Below, in pieces: positions 12,045-18,420 of a DNA stretch of 64,000 bases. Numbering within the stretch: the first letter of the stretch is position 1; each line of letters opens with the position of its first letter. The DNA is from Bacteroidota bacterium (lineage in GTDB: Bacteria > Bacteroidota > Rhodothermia > Rhodothermales > JANQRZ01), in NCBI GenBank assembly GCA_038746285.1, contig JBCDKT010000016.1, positions 1 through 64,000 of the forward strand, in the 5' to 3' direction. Under the pieces are notes generated by a model. The model was not told the DNA's origin and searched no databases. It saw nothing but the letters and a program-made list of their open reading frames with translations. Made by a program: the position numbers and the translations under genes.

Positions 12045-13445
12045 ATGGTTCGCGGCATCTACACCAACCGCACGCTCAACCTCCGCTCGATCAAGGCGGT
12101 GGGCTACGACATGGACTACACGCTCATCCACTACCACGAGCGGGCGTGGGAGGAGCGGGCCTACAGCTACATCAAGGAGCGCCTCCTCGGGCGCGGCTGG
12201 CCGGTCGAGGAGTTGAGGTTCCAGCCCGACCTCGTGATGCGCGGGCTGATCATCGACACCGCGCTCGGCAACGTCGTCAAGGCCAACCGCTTCGGCTACA
12301 TCAAGCGGGCCTCGCACGGCACGAAGCGGCTGGCGCGCGCCAAGCTGCGCGAATCCTACACCCGCACCCTCGTCGACCTCGACGAGCCGCGCTGGCTGTT
12401 CATGAACACGCTCTTCTCGCTCTCCGAGGCGAGCATGTACATGCAGCTCGTCGACCTCCTCGACGCCGACGTGATCGAGGCGAAGCTGAGCTACGCCGAC
12501 CTCTACGCGCTCGTCCGCGGCGCGCTCGACGAGGCCCACATGGAGGGCCGCCTCAAGGGCGAGATCGTCGAGGACCCGGCGCGCTTCGTCGCGCTCGACA
12601 AGGAGGTGCCGCTCGCGCTCCTCGACCAGAAGCGCGCCGGCAAGAAGGTGCTCCTCATCACCAACTCCGAGTGGGCCTACGCCGCCCCGATGCTCGCCTT
12701 CGCCTTCGACCCCTTCCTGCCGGGCGCGATGACGTGGCGCGACCTGTTCGACCTCGCGATCGTCGGGTCGCGCAAGCCGGCCTTCTTCACCGCCCGGATG
12801 CCGACCTTCGAGGTGATGAGCGACGACGGGCTGCTGCGCGAGCACGTCGGGATGCTGAAGCCGGGGCACGTCTACGTCGGCGCGAACGCGGGGCAGGTCG
12901 AGGCCAGCCTCGGGCTGCGGGGCGAGGACATCCTCTACGTCGGCGACCACCTCTTCACCGACGTCAACGTCTCGAAGAGCGTCCTCCGCTGGCGGACGGC
13001 GCTCATCCTCCGCGAGCTCGAAGACGAGCTGGCCGCCATCGGCGGGTTCCACGAGACGCAGCGGCAGCTCACCGAGATGATGGCGCGCAAGGTCGAGATG
13101 GAGGCCGAGTACTCGGCCTACCGCCTCGCGCTCCAGCGCGCCAAGGGCGGCTACGGCCCGGACCCGGCGCGCCCGCCGGCCGAGATCGAGGCCGAGATGG
13201 ACGCGCACCGCGCGCGGCTCCTCGCGCTCGACGCCGAGATCGCCCCGCTGGCCCGGGCCTCGGCGCGGCTCCACAACAAGCGGTGGGGCCTGATGATGCG
13301 CGCCGGCAACGACAAGAGCCACCTCGCCCGCCAGGTCGAGCGCTACGCCGACGTCTACACCGGGCGCGTCTCGAACTTCCTCCACGCCACGCCCTACGCC
13401 TACTTCCGCTCCCACCGCGGATCGCTCCCGCACGACGCGAGGTGA
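12045..13445 (+). CDS. HAD-type 5'-nucleotidase (HAD-IG / cN-II-like), rebuilt 3' end
   Basis: Cytosolic nucleotidase-like enzyme of 466 residues. HAD motif I is GYDMDYTLIHY (DxD), motif II KKVLLITNSEWAY, later motif DILYVGDHLFTDV; a coiled segment follows near residues 340-420. It should dephosphorylate nucleoside monophosphates. Start ATG 12045 gives MVRGIYTNRTLNL, the likely family N-terminus. The last 81 coding bases (13356-13436, encoding YTGRVSNFLHATPY...LPHD) recur at 15789-15869 with 5 mismatches. There they continue into TVLGDPAAYGVPEQ and stop, while here the frame ends with only Ala-Arg. I infer that a 2.35-kb insert separated the original tail and supplied a substitute end. Confidence 0.87.
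   Translation: MVRGIYTNRTLNLRSIKAVGYDMDYTLIHYHERAWEERAYSYIKERLLGRGWPVEELRFQPDLVMRGLIIDTALGNVVKANRFGYIKRASHGTKRLARAKLRESYTRTLVDLDEPRWLFMNTLFSLSEASMYMQLVDLLDADVIEAKLSYADLYALVRGALDEAHMEGRLKGEIVEDPARFVALDKEVPLALLDQKRAGKKVLLITNSEWAYAAPMLAFAFDPFLPGAMTWRDLFDLAIVGSRKPAFFTARMPTFEVMSDDGLLREHVGMLKPGHVYVGANAGQVEASLGLRGEDILYVGDHLFTDVNVSKSVLRWRTALILRELEDELAAIGGFHETQRQLTEMMARKVEMEAEYSAYRLALQRAKGGYGPDPARPPAEIEAEMDAHRARLLALDAEIAPLARASARLHNKRWGLMMRAGNDKSHLARQVERYADVYTGRVSNFLHATPYAYFRSHRGSLPHDAR
13356..13436 (+). repeat. 81-bp direct repeat, left copy (inside nucleotidase gene)
   Basis: This segment matches 15789-15869 at 76 of 81 positions with no gap. Four of the five differences cluster where this copy encodes Ser-Asn-Phe and the right copy would encode Leu-Asp-Ser. 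As this copy stays in frame in an intact gene, it seems the functional one. The pair brackets the insert 13437-15788. Confidence 0.9.
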
Positions 13446-13505
13446 ACCACGATGCCTGCACCTACTGCTGCGGCGAGCGAGACATTGAGGAAGCGAAACC
13501 CGACA

Positions 13506-14054
13506 TCATCTCCCCTCGAATGTGAGATCGAACGGAGCCGAGAGCGAGATGTCCGTGGGTGCCGGAGCGCCTCGGTAGAGGGAGTCCTCGTCGCCGGGTG
13601 TCAGGAAGAGGGTAGCGCCCACGCGGTACAACCCATCGACAGGGCCTTCCCCCTCCCACAGTGCTACTCCGTCGGGGCGAAGATCGAGGGTGAGGCCAAG
13701 CGTTCGTGACTCGCCCGGACGAATCCGTTCGTTCTCTCTGAGGATAGCCGGCGTGTACGGGCTGTACGCCAAGTAGAGAGAGGCAGGCGTTTGATCGCCG
13801 GTCGAGAACGGAGGTTCAGACTCGCGAAACAGTTCGAGATTAGGCCGACCGAGGTAAAGGTTCGACTCGGTAGTGTTAGTTACAGTGACGGTGAGAGAGA
13901 TGACCTCACCAAAGCGGAGGACGTCGGGCGCTTCGACTACAAAAGCAGCCGTCGACAGTTTGGCTGCCGCACTGGGGTCAGTACTGCTGGAATCGCAGGC
14001 CGATAGGCCAAGGAAGAGGAGAAGCATGGTCGCAACTCGGACTAGGTACGTCAT
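13506..14054 (-). CDS. Lipoprotein with BsuPI-like (protease-inhibitor-like) domain
   Basis: Lipoprotein of 182 residues with lipobox LSAC. The mature part has the immunoglobulin-like layout of BsuPI-type domains: ISLTVTVTNTTESNLYL early, ERIRPGESRTLGLTLDL in the middle, DGLYRVGATLFLTPG near the end. BsuPI is an intracellular protease inhibitor of Bacillus; most distant members are untested. It lies 89 bp downstream of an S1-type protease gene on the same strand within the inserted cassette. That suggests, but does not prove, an inhibitor or immunity partner for the protease. Start ATG 14054 gives a good signal peptide. Confidence 0.65.
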   Translation of the reverse strand: MTYLVRVATMLLLFLGLSACDSSSTDPSAAAKLSTAAFVVEAPDVLRFGEVISLTVTVTNTTESNLYLGRPNLELFRESEPPFSTGDQTPASLYLAYSPYTPAILRENERIRPGESRTLGLTLDLRPDGVALWEGEGPVDGLYRVGATLFLTPGDEDSLYRGAPAPTDISLSAPFDLTFEGR

Positions 14055-14103
14055 GGTTTAGGAGGCACGCGCGGCCTTATTTAGATCAGAATAGCACGAG
14101 GGC

Positions 14104-14135
14104 GGCCGCCACACCTCCTGAGAGGTATGGCGGCC
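14104..14135 (-). terminator. Stem-loop after the protease gene
   Basis: GGCCGCCACACCTC (14104-14117) pairs with GAGGTATGGCGGCC (14122-14135) with one C/A mismatch, just past the protease stop and upstream of the lipoprotein gene. No T-run follows. It may trim or attenuate the protease transcript before the lipoprotein gene. Confidence 0.5.
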
Positions 14136-14143
14136 GGGAACGA

Positions 14144-15607
14144 TCACGGCAGCGATTCTATACGTGTGGTGCCGCCAAAACGCGGACTACTGGGGTTGTG
14201 CGTGTAGAGATCACCGTTGCTGCCGCTGCGGCGGAGTTCTCTGTTGATGAGGTGAAAGGCGCTGTAGACGAAGAAGCGAGTCCCATTGCTCTCTGTTCGG
14301 CCGCCCCACAGAAGGCCCTGGAGGCGAGCTGTGTTACTACCGGTCGGGAAGAAAACGGGCGAGCCGCTGTCGCCGGCATCGGAGTAAGCCCGGACCTCGT
14401 ACTGGCAGCGGAGGTCTTTGCCCGCGTTTGAATTGGACGGGTTAGTGTTGTCGAGGGGGATGGTTACACACGACCTCGTAATGGGGCCTGTAGTCCAGCC
14501 TGACGTGCGCCCGACTCTGTCTACGACGGTACCAACAATGTGCTGATAGCTAGCGGCATCAGACTCAATTTGGAAAGCGGCTATCCTGTCGTGAGAGCCA
14601 GGGCTGTTGGTGCCCGCGTATCTGGTTTTAGCGATCTGGCCGAACAGCGTGTTGGTATTGTTCTGGCTCAGGTCGTAATCAACGAAGGTGGCGTCTGAGT
14701 ATCGCCACGGTCTGCCCCCGCCCCCACCAACAGGTGGTCCTTGTATAGCCGTAGCGCCAACTGGTCTCCCTAGTGTGTTAAAGGCAGGGTCCACGATCTC
14801 GACACCGAGGTAGCGGCCTGAGTTTCCATAAGAACCATTGCCCTGATAGAACTGCGCGCTGTTAACGCCACCCACAGCGCCACTGGCGTTCGTGCAATGT
14901 GAGTTGGTCACGAAACCGCCGATATCGCCTGACATGGAGCCACGGAAGGCCATGAAGCCGTGGGTGCAATGGCCCCACTGCATTGCAATAGCGTAGCCGG
15001 CCTCGAGGTATGGGCCGTAATTGCGGATGTCGATCTGAGCCTCGTACCTCGGCTCGACCCTCACTTCGAGGGCGTCGGACGGAATGCCGAGCGCAGCGGC
15101 GCTCTCACGAACGCGTCCGACCTCTTGTGAGGATGTAACCTCGACGTAGACGAGTCCCTTTCGCTCATCTGCGTCGTGGAGCGAGAGGCCAGGCGTCGTA
15201 AGGGCGAGAGCCTCCCGCCACGCGAGCACATCGGCGAAGCCGTAAAGCGCAGAAGCTGGGGTCGGAGCCGCTCTCTCGGCGAGAGGCGCGGAACCCCCTG
15301 GTGCTAGCTCATCGGCAACGGTGAGGGCTTCTGAGACGACCGCCGCGGGATCCTGCGCAGATCTGGCAACGGCGACCCGAAGCATACCGTTCTCCTCGAA
15401 CAAGCCCGCAAAGTCCGGCACCCGCTCCGAGATCGACAGGAGGTAGCCGTCGTGGGTGTCGCGGTCTACGGTGGCGAGAGCGTCTTGGTGGGAGAGGGAC
15501 GTACTCTGGGCGTCGGCCGACGAGAAGTCTGCGTCGTTTGTGGCATCGCAGCCGCCTAGCCAGGCAAGTGCGAAAGCAGCCAACAAGAGCAATGCAATGT
15601 GTTTCAT
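14144..15607 (-). CDS. S1-family (streptogrisin / alpha-lytic-like) pre-pro serine protease
   Basis: Exported protease of 487 residues from ATG 15607. The signal peptide ends LGGC (Cys20), a possible lipobox. A pro-region of about 170 residues contains the alpha-lytic-style stretch KGLVYVEVTSSQEVGRVRESA. The catalytic domain begins near residue 205. His237 is in GGFVTNSHCT, Asp305 in YSDATFVDY and Ser414 in GDSGSPVF; cysteines such as Cys214/Cys238 and Cys380/Cys401 fit S1E disulfides. The pro-region should act as folding chaperone and temporary inhibitor. The gene is in the direct-repeat-bounded insert with a BsuPI-like lipoprotein. Its upstream region is AT-rich and contains a palindrome (CCGTTGGGCCCGACGG). 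Confidence 0.87.
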   Translation of the reverse strand: MKHIALLLLAAFALAWLGGCDATNDADFSSADAQSTSLSHQDALATVDRDTHDGYLLSISERVPDFAGLFEENGMLRVAVARSAQDPAAVVSEALTVADELAPGGSAPLAERAAPTPASALYGFADVLAWREALALTTPGLSLHDADERKGLVYVEVTSSQEVGRVRESAAALGIPSDALEVRVEPRYEAQIDIRNYGPYLEAGYAIAMQWGHCTHGFMAFRGSMSGDIGGFVTNSHCTNASGAVGGVNSAQFYQGNGSYGNSGRYLGVEIVDPAFNTLGRPVGATAIQGPPVGGGGGRPWRYSDATFVDYDLSQNNTNTLFGQIAKTRYAGTNSPGSHDRIAAFQIESDAASYQHIVGTVVDRVGRTSGWTTGPITRSCVTIPLDNTNPSNSNAGKDLRCQYEVRAYSDAGDSGSPVFFPTGSNTARLQGLLWGGRTESNGTRFFVYSAFHLINRELRRSGSNGDLYTHNPSSPRFGGTTRIESLP

Positions 15608-15788
15608 GGTTCTATCCGGTTTGGGGTGGGCTGGTGATAGAACCGTCGGGCCCAACGGTACTCCATATGTAAAAAAAAAGGAAGGCAAGTCAAGTCATTT
15701 TTCCATCTTTATAATTTTTGTAGCGCAATGCTAGGAAACATATTTGTATATGCGAAGGCTCGGTGATTCGAGATATTGAGTCGGTGTA
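15608..15788. other. AT-rich upstream region of the protease gene
   Basis: This segment holds the protease leader and, on the plus strand, an A9 run followed by AAGTCATTTTTCCATCTTTATAATTTTTG-like AT-rich sequence, the lowest-GC DNA I see in the window. A promoter is likely, but no single Bacteroidota -33/-7 pair stands out. The palindrome CCGTTGGGCCCGACGG lies at about 15640-15655. Confidence 0.4.
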
Positions 15789-15914
15789 TACACCGGGCGC
15801 GTCTTAGACTCCCTCCACGCCACGCCCTACGCCTACTTCCGCTCCCACCGCGGCTCGCTCCCGCACGACACCGTGCTCGGAGACCCCGCCGCCTACGGCG
15901 TGCCGGAGCAATAG
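15789..15914 (+). pseudogene. Displaced 3' end of the HAD nucleotidase gene
   Basis: Reading from 15789, this frame gives YTGRVLDSLHATPYAYF then RSHRGSLPHDTVLGDPAAYGVPEQ and a stop at 15912-15914. Its first 81 bp duplicate the end of the intact gene at 13356-13436; the last 14 residues are probably its original tail. There is no start codon in frame and no upstream domain, so it is a fragment. It marks the right edge of the insert. Confidence 0.85.
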
Positions 15915-15966
15915 CGCAGCCCGGCGCCTCGTTTCTCCGGCAACCCCTCACCCGACCCCGGTTGCC

Positions 15967-16782
15967 ATGCTCCCTGCGCTACGAATCGCTGTGCTCTGCC
16001 TCGTCCTCGCCACGCCCGTCGCCGCCCAGGGCACGCTCGAAGTCGGGGGCGACGCCGCCGTGCTCGTCTTCCCTGCCGACAGCGTCCTCGTCTCCATCGG
16101 GGGCACCGAGGCGGCACGCGTCGAGGTCCGCTTCGGCCCAGACCGAGGGCCGGACCTCTACCCCGGCGACCTCGTCACCGCGCTCAACGGTACCCCCGTG
16201 GCCAACGGGCAAGAGGCCAGAGAGCTATACCGGGCGCTCGAGGCCGGCGACGAGGTGCGCCTCTCCGTCGAGCGCGACGGGACGGCGCGCGAGGTGGTCT
16301 TCGCCAAGCCCGCCCGGCCGGCGGGACAGCTTGCGATCTCGCCGACGCCGGAGCAGCTGGCCGCCGCCCGTGCCCGCCAGGGGTGGGGCGGCACGTCGCT
16401 CGCCACGGCCGAGTACGCCGACCGGTGGGTACCCACCAATGGAGCGGCTGCGACCCACGATGAGGCCAACGGAACGGTCCTGTTCAAAGGGACTGCGCCG
16501 GAGTCTGCGCTGCGCCTCGACGAGCCGCTCGACGTGCACCGCAGGGAGGGCCTGCGCGTCCGAGCCAAAGGAGACGGCGGGACCTACCGCGTTCGGCTGA
16601 CCGATGCCGGCGGTGCCTCAGCGTCGGTGCCGTTCGAGGCGAGCGAGCGGTGGGGCGTCTACGACCTCGCCTTCGTAGACTTCGAGGGCGACGCGCTCGA
16701 CCTCACCGCCCTCGCCGCCATCGAACTGGTCTCCGAGGCCGGCCCGTTCCAGGTCGAGCTCGACGCCGTCGAGCCGTACTAG
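15967..16782 (+). CDS. Secreted PDZ-like protein with CIA30-like C-terminal domain
   Basis: Exported protein of 271 residues with signal peptide MLPALRIAVLCLVLATPVAAQ. The segment LYPGDLVTALNGTPVANGQE...GDEVRLSVERDGTAREVVF has the ligand-groove pattern of a PDZ domain. The C-terminal half (residues about 145-271, ending FQVELDAVEPY) resembles the beta-sandwich of CIA30 / carbohydrate-binding-like domains (WVPTNGAA..., GLRVRAKGDGGTYRVRLTD, VDFEGDALDLTALAAIELV). No catalytic residues recognised. Probably a periplasmic or surface binding protein. Confidence 0.65.
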   Translation: MLPALRIAVLCLVLATPVAAQGTLEVGGDAAVLVFPADSVLVSIGGTEAARVEVRFGPDRGPDLYPGDLVTALNGTPVANGQEARELYRALEAGDEVRLSVERDGTAREVVFAKPARPAGQLAISPTPEQLAAARARQGWGGTSLATAEYADRWVPTNGAAATHDEANGTVLFKGTAPESALRLDEPLDVHRREGLRVRAKGDGGTYRVRLTDAGGASASVPFEASERWGVYDLAFVDFEGDALDLTALAAIELVSEAGPFQVELDAVEPY

Positions 16783-16842
16783 GCCCGCGGCGCCGCCGGC
16801 TGCTCGTCGTACCTTCGCGCTTCACCGACTTCCGCTTTGCCC

Positions 16843-18399
16843 ATGCTCCGCCTTGTTGTCCTCTTCCTCGTCCTCGCTCCGGCCACGGCTGCGATGCCCA
16901 CTGCGCCGGACTCGACCGACTACGACGCACTCGAGAGCCTGAGCTACGCGGCCTACGTGCAGCCGCTCCTCGCCGCGCGCGACGCGTTCGGGCTGGGCGA
17001 GGCCGAGGCCTACGCGTGGGACGCCCTCTTCGCGGGCAAGGCCGGGGCGGCCATCGTCCCGTTCGACGCCGCCGGGAGCGACGCCCTCCGCCTCGTCCTC
17101 GACACCGACGAAGCGACGGCAATTCCGTACCCCAACCTCCGCCAGATGGAGCCGGACGAGCTGCGCTACCTCGCGCGCTGGATCGAGGCCGGGGCACGGG
17201 ACGACGAGGGCACCGTGCCCTACGCCGACGCCGAGCACGTTCTCTTCGTCGCCGAGCAGGGGCAGAACGCGGTCGCGCTCGTGGACGCCGCCCGCCGCCG
17301 CGTGATCCGCCGCGTCTACCTCGACCACCACGGGCTGGAGAGCACGCCCTACGGCCCACACCACATGGTCTTCGAGCCGGACGAGAGCGCCTGGTACGCC
17401 TCGCTCATCAGCGCGGGCGTCGTCGCCAAGCTCTCGATGGACCTCACGCTCGACCCCTCGGCTCCGGCCTACCTCCTCGGCCACTCCGAGCCGGGCAGCT
17501 TCACGACGCCGGGGATGATGGCCCTCGACGCCGAGCGCGGCCGGCTCTACTCCGGCCGCTCGACGCTGTCCTCGGCCGGCACCTACGGCCTCGGCGCGTT
17601 CGACACCGAGACGATGGAGCTCGTCGAGGAGATGCCCCTCCCGGGCTACGACGTGCCGCACGCGCTCGCGCTCACGCCCGACGGGCGCTACCTCCTCACC
17701 GCCCCGCTCTCGGGCCGCGAGACGCTCGTCCTCGACGCCCGGACCGGCGACCTCGTCAGCCGCACGCCGCTCGGCGAGCGCAACCGCGAGCTGATCCACT
17801 TCAGCCTCCTCCCCGATGGCACGACGGCGACCCTCACCGCCAACGGCAACGGCGCGAGCGAGGTCCTCTTCTTCACCCTCGGCCCCGACGGCACGCTTAC
17901 CCCCGGCGGCACCGCCCCGACCGGCGCGCGCGCTTGGCACGGCCACCTCGACAGCGACGGCCGCTCGCTCCTCGTCCCCAACCGCGTCGGCCAGAGCGTG
18001 ACGGTGATCGACGTGCCGACCAAGACCGTCCGGCTGACCGCCGAGAACGACGCCCCCGACGGACCGATTGCGATGCCGCACTCGCCGGCCCCGACCTACG
18101 AGGGCAGCTTCTTCGTGACGAGCTCGAACCTCCAGGGGACCTGGGCACCGCCCGTCCGCTTCCTCGGCCCGCCCGATGCCGACGGCGCGCGCGCGCCGCT
18201 CCCGAACGACGCCTTCGGCAACCTGACGGTCCTGAACGCGGAGACCGGAGCCGTCGAGGCTGTGATCACGCTCGGGGCGTACCCCTCCGGCGTCGAGCAC
18301 CCGATGCACGGCATGCACCACGGCGGGATGGAGCACGGCGGCATGCACGAGGGCATGGACCACGGCGACGGGCAGAAGGGCAGCCACGGCGGCCACTGA
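16843..18399 (+). CDS. Secreted beta-propeller with haem-less cytochrome-like N-terminus and His/Met-rich tail
   Basis: Exported protein of 518 residues (ATG 16843; the TTG at 16837 is less likely). After the signal peptide, residues 25-120 (YAAYVQPLLAARDAFG...MEPDELRYLARWIEAGA) look like the cytochrome-c domain that precedes planctomycete-type propellers, but there is no CxxCH, so no haem. A YncE/lactonase-like seven-blade propeller follows (HVLFVAEQGQNAVALVDAARRRV, SLLVPNRVGQSVTVIDVPTKT). The last 33 residues hold repeated HGM/HHGGM/HGGMHEGM motifs, a likely copper- or nickel-binding tail. Role is unknown; metal storage or delivery at the cell surface is possible. Confidence 0.7.
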   Translation: MLRLVVLFLVLAPATAAMPTAPDSTDYDALESLSYAAYVQPLLAARDAFGLGEAEAYAWDALFAGKAGAAIVPFDAAGSDALRLVLDTDEATAIPYPNLRQMEPDELRYLARWIEAGARDDEGTVPYADAEHVLFVAEQGQNAVALVDAARRRVIRRVYLDHHGLESTPYGPHHMVFEPDESAWYASLISAGVVAKLSMDLTLDPSAPAYLLGHSEPGSFTTPGMMALDAERGRLYSGRSTLSSAGTYGLGAFDTETMELVEEMPLPGYDVPHALALTPDGRYLLTAPLSGRETLVLDARTGDLVSRTPLGERNRELIHFSLLPDGTTATLTANGNGASEVLFFTLGPDGTLTPGGTAPTGARAWHGHLDSDGRSLLVPNRVGQSVTVIDVPTKTVRLTAENDAPDGPIAMPHSPAPTYEGSFFVTSSNLQGTWAPPVRFLGPPDADGARAPLPNDAFGNLTVLNAETGAVEAVITLGAYPSGVEHPMHGMHHGGMEHGGMHEGMDHGDGQKGSHGGH

Positions 18400-18420
18400 C
18401 CGCGCGCGACGGCGCTGCGC

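Follow-up and report, generated by a model that had tools for sequence, protein, structure and literature searches.

Protease cassettes between long direct repeats of host gene ends point to gene capture with target duplication in Rhodothermia

The stretch of DNA analysed here (the window, 64,000 nucleotides from a Rhodothermia contig) contains a segment of about 2.3 kb that was probably captured as foreign DNA near the 3' end of a nucleotidase gene, with 84 bp of the target duplicated in the act and with no recombinase of its own. Similar protease cassettes are inserted likewise in at least four further genera, next to genes unrelated to the nucleotidase and to one another. The features of the window locus are as follows.

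12045..13445, plus strand: HAD-family 5'-nucleotidase, the target gene (Pfam 5_nucleotid, E 9e-138)
13353..13436, plus strand: left copy of the probable target duplication, attached and functional, with 1 private silent change relative to G001 and G002
13437..15785, no strand: putative inserted foreign segment, 2349 bp, GC 59.3%
13506..14054, minus strand: small lipoprotein, 182 aa, beta-rich, putative protease partner or inhibitor, downstream of the protease and in the same direction
14144..15607, minus strand: predicted S1-type (trypsin-like) lipoprotein protease with a long N-terminal pro-region, 487 aa, catalytic His237/Asp305/Ser414
15786..15869, plus strand: right copy of the probable target duplication, detached and decaying, followed by 15870-15914

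The repeat is the last stretch of the nucleotidase gene, of which the final 84 nt before the insert form the left copy. Positions 13353-13436 match positions 15786-15869 at 78 of 84 sites (92.9%, E ~6e-29), with a spacing of 2433 nt. The first-pass annotation, made from the letters of the window, had counted 76 of 81 identical bases over 13356-13436, which is correct, and the match runs 3 nt further in the 5' direction. A search of the whole 4.08 Mb genome found no third copy, the repeat being present in two places in total. The nucleotidase now ends in codons derived from the insert (..PHDAR), with the stop two codons into it. The same annotation held that the downstream copy continues into a longer tail, and the detached copy indeed reads on in frame (...SLPHDTVLGDPAAYGVPEQ, then a stop codon) to a native-looking end. 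The segment 15870-15914 (..TVLGDPAAYGVPEQ, then a stop codon) is probably the original end of the nucleotidase gene.

For the ancestry of the two copies, we used one relative from the same genus (G001) and one from the same family (G002), whose nucleotidases are 90% and 83% identical to that in the window, respectively. The attached copy has a single private change relative to these genomes, which is silent. Of the five private changes in the detached copy, four are non-silent and affect three amino acids. The two copies also have one derived change in common (Leu to Phe) that is absent from G001 and G002. The shared derived change and the decay of the detached copy suggest that the duplication was made locally, and a sister relationship of the copies, arising within the host lineage, is the best interpretation. 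The weak point of this reading is that the mismatches are concentrated in the first 29 nt, at the 5' edge, a clustering that random decay would not predict.

The insert has a GC content of 59.3%. Segments of equal length across this genome have a median of 69.2%, and 0.2% of them are as low, so that the earlier impression of less GC-rich DNA is borne out. Two genes on the opposite strand and the absence of an integrase had also been pointed out, and the insert does hold two co-directional minus-strand genes, 89 bp apart, and no recombinase domain. There are no restriction-modification genes in the insert, the cargo being the protease and the lipoprotein alone. No inverted repeat joining the two ends of the insert was found, and neither terminal inverted repeats nor flanking IS elements were seen at this site.

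The larger gene is predicted to encode a trypsin-like S1 protease, in agreement with the first reading. The catalytic residues His237, Asp305, and Ser414 are invariant in the family, the protein resembles the S1 proteases (PF00089) in its catalytic triad and GDSGSP motif, and it barely passes the Pfam Trypsin model (20.8 bits against a cut-off of 20.6). Its similarity to any solved protease is very weak. The smaller gene encodes a lipoprotein with a lipobox, recognised by eye. Its previous label, BsuPI-like, is not supported: the protein has no Pfam match, to PF12690 or otherwise. The AlphaFold model of the protein, a single-sequence model of low confidence (pLDDT 53), consists of beta strands, and a fold comparison of this model gave no significant match.

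When 245 genomes of the class were searched with a profile, homologs of the protease were identified in 25 of them, and none was found outside the Rhodothermia in the sample of the phylum that was searched. Carriage of the protease by phages or plasmids was considered and rejected; there is no relative among viral contigs, and the plasmid relatives amount to one distant match in Deinococcus (25%). The proposed pairing of the protease with a lipoprotein recurs: in five cassettes (window, G034, G167, G145, and G185), the protease gene is followed by a co-directional gene for a small lipoprotein (~150-185 aa). The partner lipoproteins do not all belong to one family. The one in G167 matches the BsuPI-type inhibitors (PF12690) above the cut-off (23.8 versus 22.9 bits), and another falls just below the cut-off for an Ig-like domain, while the one in the window matches no family and shows no BLAST similarity to the partners in G034 and G167. 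It is plausible, if weakly supported, that the lipoprotein may restrain its protease, or shield against it, at the cell surface. In other genomes, the protease adjoins genes for SusD-like and beta-sandwich lipoproteins without repeats. In families f16 and f17 (L112-L119), the protease homolog has genes for a SusD-like protein and a beta-sandwich lipoprotein as neighbors in such a repeat-free arrangement, which is apparently its stable chromosomal setting.

The first-pass annotation predicted that strains without the insert would have a nucleotidase ending in ...LPHDTVLGDPAAYGVPEQ, followed directly by the gene at 15967. Such a site was not found: the proteins of the nearest relatives end in ...SLPHDEV and ...SLPHDEA before the stop, and other genes lie downstream. 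No relative, G001 and G002 included, holds an empty site of the window locus, a point against the capture reading, and the right flank of the cassette is not conserved in relatives. The nucleotidase end is present in one copy in G001 and in one copy in G002, perhaps with a degenerate second copy. More generally, the stretch after the nucleotidase (window 13446-18400) differs in all three family members. It contains the protease cassette and a PDZ gene in the window, an Lrp gene and a methionine gamma-lyase-like gene in G001, and a secreted gene, an antiporter, and a TonB receptor in G002. The possible second nucleotidase end in G002 (L009, 15103-15164) is 74% identical over 62 nt (E 2e-5), with a local score of 35 versus at most 30 in 300 shuffles, and sits past a different secreted gene on the opposite strand. 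A separate insertion into this gene end could account for it.

Five other protease loci in the class are bracketed by long direct repeats, each of which is a piece of the local gene.

G034: 93 nt, 97% identity, start of an S41 peptidase gene
G055: 80 nt, 84% identity, overlapping 3' ends of convergent flavin reductase and TIGR02757 genes
G145: 246 nt, 85% identity, PhoH-like gene end together with repetitive sequence
G167: ~228 nt, 67% identity, end of YifB
G007: 275 nt, 94% identity, convergent gene ends (glycogen phosphorylase), enclosing a truncated protease as well as a YWTD-repeat protein

The six cassettes, including that of the window, thus have six different repeats with no sequence in common, and repeats of 80-275 bp without a common sequence do not represent one att site. 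In the convergent-gene cases, each of the two genes is completed by a different copy of the repeat, which is the pattern expected from target duplication. The gene names at these loci come from reading the translations, with family libraries run for selected proteins. A repetitive intergenic element ending in ..CCGCGGGATGAC is present in several copies in G145 (L111, 7975-8076 and 10331-14315); the 246-nt repeat overlaps with this element in its right half.

These observations bear on the mode of entry put forward in the first-pass annotation, namely site-specific integration with a copy of the gene end carried by the element. On this view, a recombinase would act in trans on an element-borne att site that mimics the 3' end of the gene. 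What stands of that proposal is a foreign two-gene unit inserted at a gene end; the entry by site-specific integration is not supported. Many integrative elements use the 3' ends of genes as their targets, the right copy in the window keeps its native tail, and the possible degenerate nucleotidase end past a different gene in G002 points weakly in the same direction. However, no recombinase is found inside, the targets and the repeat sequences differ in every case, the repeats are up to 275 bp long, one case duplicates the start of a gene, and two duplicate both ends of convergent genes. Considering also the single-copy empty sites described below and the probable local origin of the window copies, integration in trans is very unlikely and largely refuted. 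An att site carried by the element was rejected on the diverse targets and the empty sites.

To find empty sites, the joined flanks of the cassettes were searched across the class. The G007 site is uninterrupted and without gaps in G013, G006, and G004, and the G055 site in G056, each with one copy of the repeat. The G167 site is contiguous in G159, also with one repeat copy, the alignment having 4 small gap positions per side. The flanks of the cassettes in G145 and G034 are not conserved in relatives. As judged from these alignments, insertion of foreign DNA with a target duplication of 80-275 bp is shown for the cassettes with empty sites, and it is the best reading of the window locus. In G007, the left and right copies are 93.8% alike and each is 85-91% identical to the relatives; the copies are closer to each other than to the relatives, which suggests that the duplication postdates the split from them. 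In G055, the copies are no more alike (83.8%) than either is to the empty site (85-86%), as would be expected of an old duplication but also of an imported copy.

An earlier tandem duplication of the gene end, later broken by an ordinary insertion, would give the same final map, and such an order of events has been proposed for transposed genes in Arabidopsis (PMC2869330). It is nevertheless highly improbable here, as each of the six genomes would have had to undergo two unconnected events at a single position, and the empty sites of the relatives are single-copy, with no tandem copies. Debris of a transposon or IS element, or an artefact of assembly, can be given hardly any credence. The protease loci L061 and L062 are IS-associated, but no IS or terminal inverted repeats occur at the window insert, and the repeat-bracketed pattern is also present in G034, a genome that consists of a single contig. 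Moreover, the window copies differ by 6 bases and are therefore no assembler copy.

With a repeat of at least 60 nt and at least 75% identity within 1.5 kb on either side as the rule, 4 of 21 testable protease loci are flanked by repeats, compared with 5 of 468 control ORFs (Fisher p = 0.0003). Two further protease cases, in G167 and G007, are not counted under this rule, owing to a short contig or a truncated gene. The same pattern surrounds other low-GC cargo. In G034, an 84-nt repeat brackets a secreted SnoaL-like protein and a 97-nt repeat a cytochrome-like protein. In the genome of the window itself (G000:C2, 46080-51012), the 3' end of hppA is duplicated (94 nt, 88%) around genes for secreted proteins of low GC content (62% versus 69%); G001 likewise has an extra stretch here, of about 4 kb, and thus provides no empty site. 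Six of the ten target duplications found are 80-97 bp long. Other long repeats were dismissed as unrelated, including a terminator pair (L073), internal repeats (L076), a CRISPR array, minisatellites, REP-like intergenic repeats, tandem paralogs, and IS-derived repeats (L061).

Two loci have more than two copies of a gene end. The end of a multicopper oxidase gene is present four times in G021 (L062, 3752-13099), with an IS-interrupted protease homolog among the cargo between the copies, which looks like serial insertion at one gene end. In G034 (C1, about 1761900-1781400, L235-L236), five copies of a 71-nt gene end are separated by stretches of low GC content (53-57%), where no integrase was recognised by eye. 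Both look more like repeated integration at one address, which counts against the capture reading.

Such nearby copies, suggesting that one address is used repeatedly, can also be accounted for by homology-driven import. The donor, circular or linear, would already have had the cassette next to part of that gene, as a circle excised from a repeat-bearing strain would, and a crossover, single or one-sided, would then make the repeat. At 80-275 bp, the repeats have sufficient length for homologous recombination, and merodiploids of this kind arise in natural transformation (PMC3784515). However, every repeat-flanked protease cassette seen adjoins a different gene, and the GC content of the cargo is far from that of the host in the window and in G034, whereas the repeat is host-like. 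Furthermore, the attached copy is as close to the relatives of the host as the detached copy, or closer, and an imported gene end predicts the opposite. We therefore regard import as an unlikely origin of the cassettes, with a modest chance of being correct, and it may spread an existing insertion between strains even where capture came first.

Under the preferred reading, capture with target duplication, about 2.3 kb of foreign DNA with an operon-like pair of genes, for a surface protease and a small lipoprotein, would have entered near the 3' end of the nucleotidase gene. Because 84 bp of the target would have been duplicated in the act, the nucleotidase gene kept a usable end. The capture may have been the repair of a staggered or collapsed break, without Ku, in which single-stranded ends of 80-275 nt would be filled in, or copied by template switching, around the incoming DNA. 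Either process, the fill-in of a long stagger or a replication template switch, would yield the repeats, and homologous recombination of donor molecules could spread the insertion once it was made. The Ku protein was not found in any of the 14 genomes checked, which makes classical end joining unlikely, and capture by non-homologous end joining was rejected on this basis. That the insertions are seen at the ends and starts of genes would be a matter of survival, since a duplication anywhere else would not spare the host gene. A more far-reaching idea, which we consider distinctly improbable, is that Rhodothermia have their own unrecognised machinery for capture or insertion with preferred duplication sizes, for which the protease-lipoprotein cassette would be a favoured, possibly self-retaining cargo.

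The description of insertion with long target duplication reportedly dates back about 25 years and drew on two H. pylori genomes, and we know of no enzyme or mechanism established for it. In the accounts of it given in later articles, the H. pylori insertions involve mainly restriction-modification genes (Nobusato, Uchiyama, Ohashi, Kobayashi 2000, via PMC3031569, PMC1643837, PMC2869330), and their target duplications are long and variable (PMC3031569, PMC1643837). As far as these accounts go, the Rhodothermia cassettes are similar in that foreign genes lie between long variable repeats that are single-copy at the related empty site, with no known enzyme. They differ in their cargo, which is a surface protease with small lipoproteins, or other secreted proteins, rather than mainly restriction-modification genes. 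Restriction-modification cargo is frequent, not defining, for this type of insertion. The defining anatomy is seen in the window as direct repeats from the target (84 nt, nucleotidase 3' end) and in the cassettes of G007, G055, and G167 as a single-copy empty site.

Transposed genes in Arabidopsis also lie between repeats of mostly genic sequence, which are longer than 30 bp and occur once at the orthologous empty site in 13 of 18 cases (PMC2869330). These genes moved within a eukaryotic genome, while the cassettes in this study are foreign DNA in bacteria for which the search for Ku was negative. Integrative elements and genomic islands at gene 3' ends likewise duplicate the gene end and keep the gene intact, but here there is no integrase, the targets are many and unrelated and include a gene start, and the long repeats share nothing.

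No prior report of insertion with long target duplication in Rhodothermia was found in the open-licence literature, and the class is a new setting for a rarely reported way of gene capture. A foreign cassette flanked by repeats at a gene end is not proof of a site-specific integrase. The natural insertions, which are of graded age (67-97% repeat identity), could serve to measure size preference, target choice, and junction rules. With a different cargo, an unrelated class, empty sites, and no Ku, they shift this type of insertion from something peculiar to restriction-modification genes closer to a general way of capturing genes.
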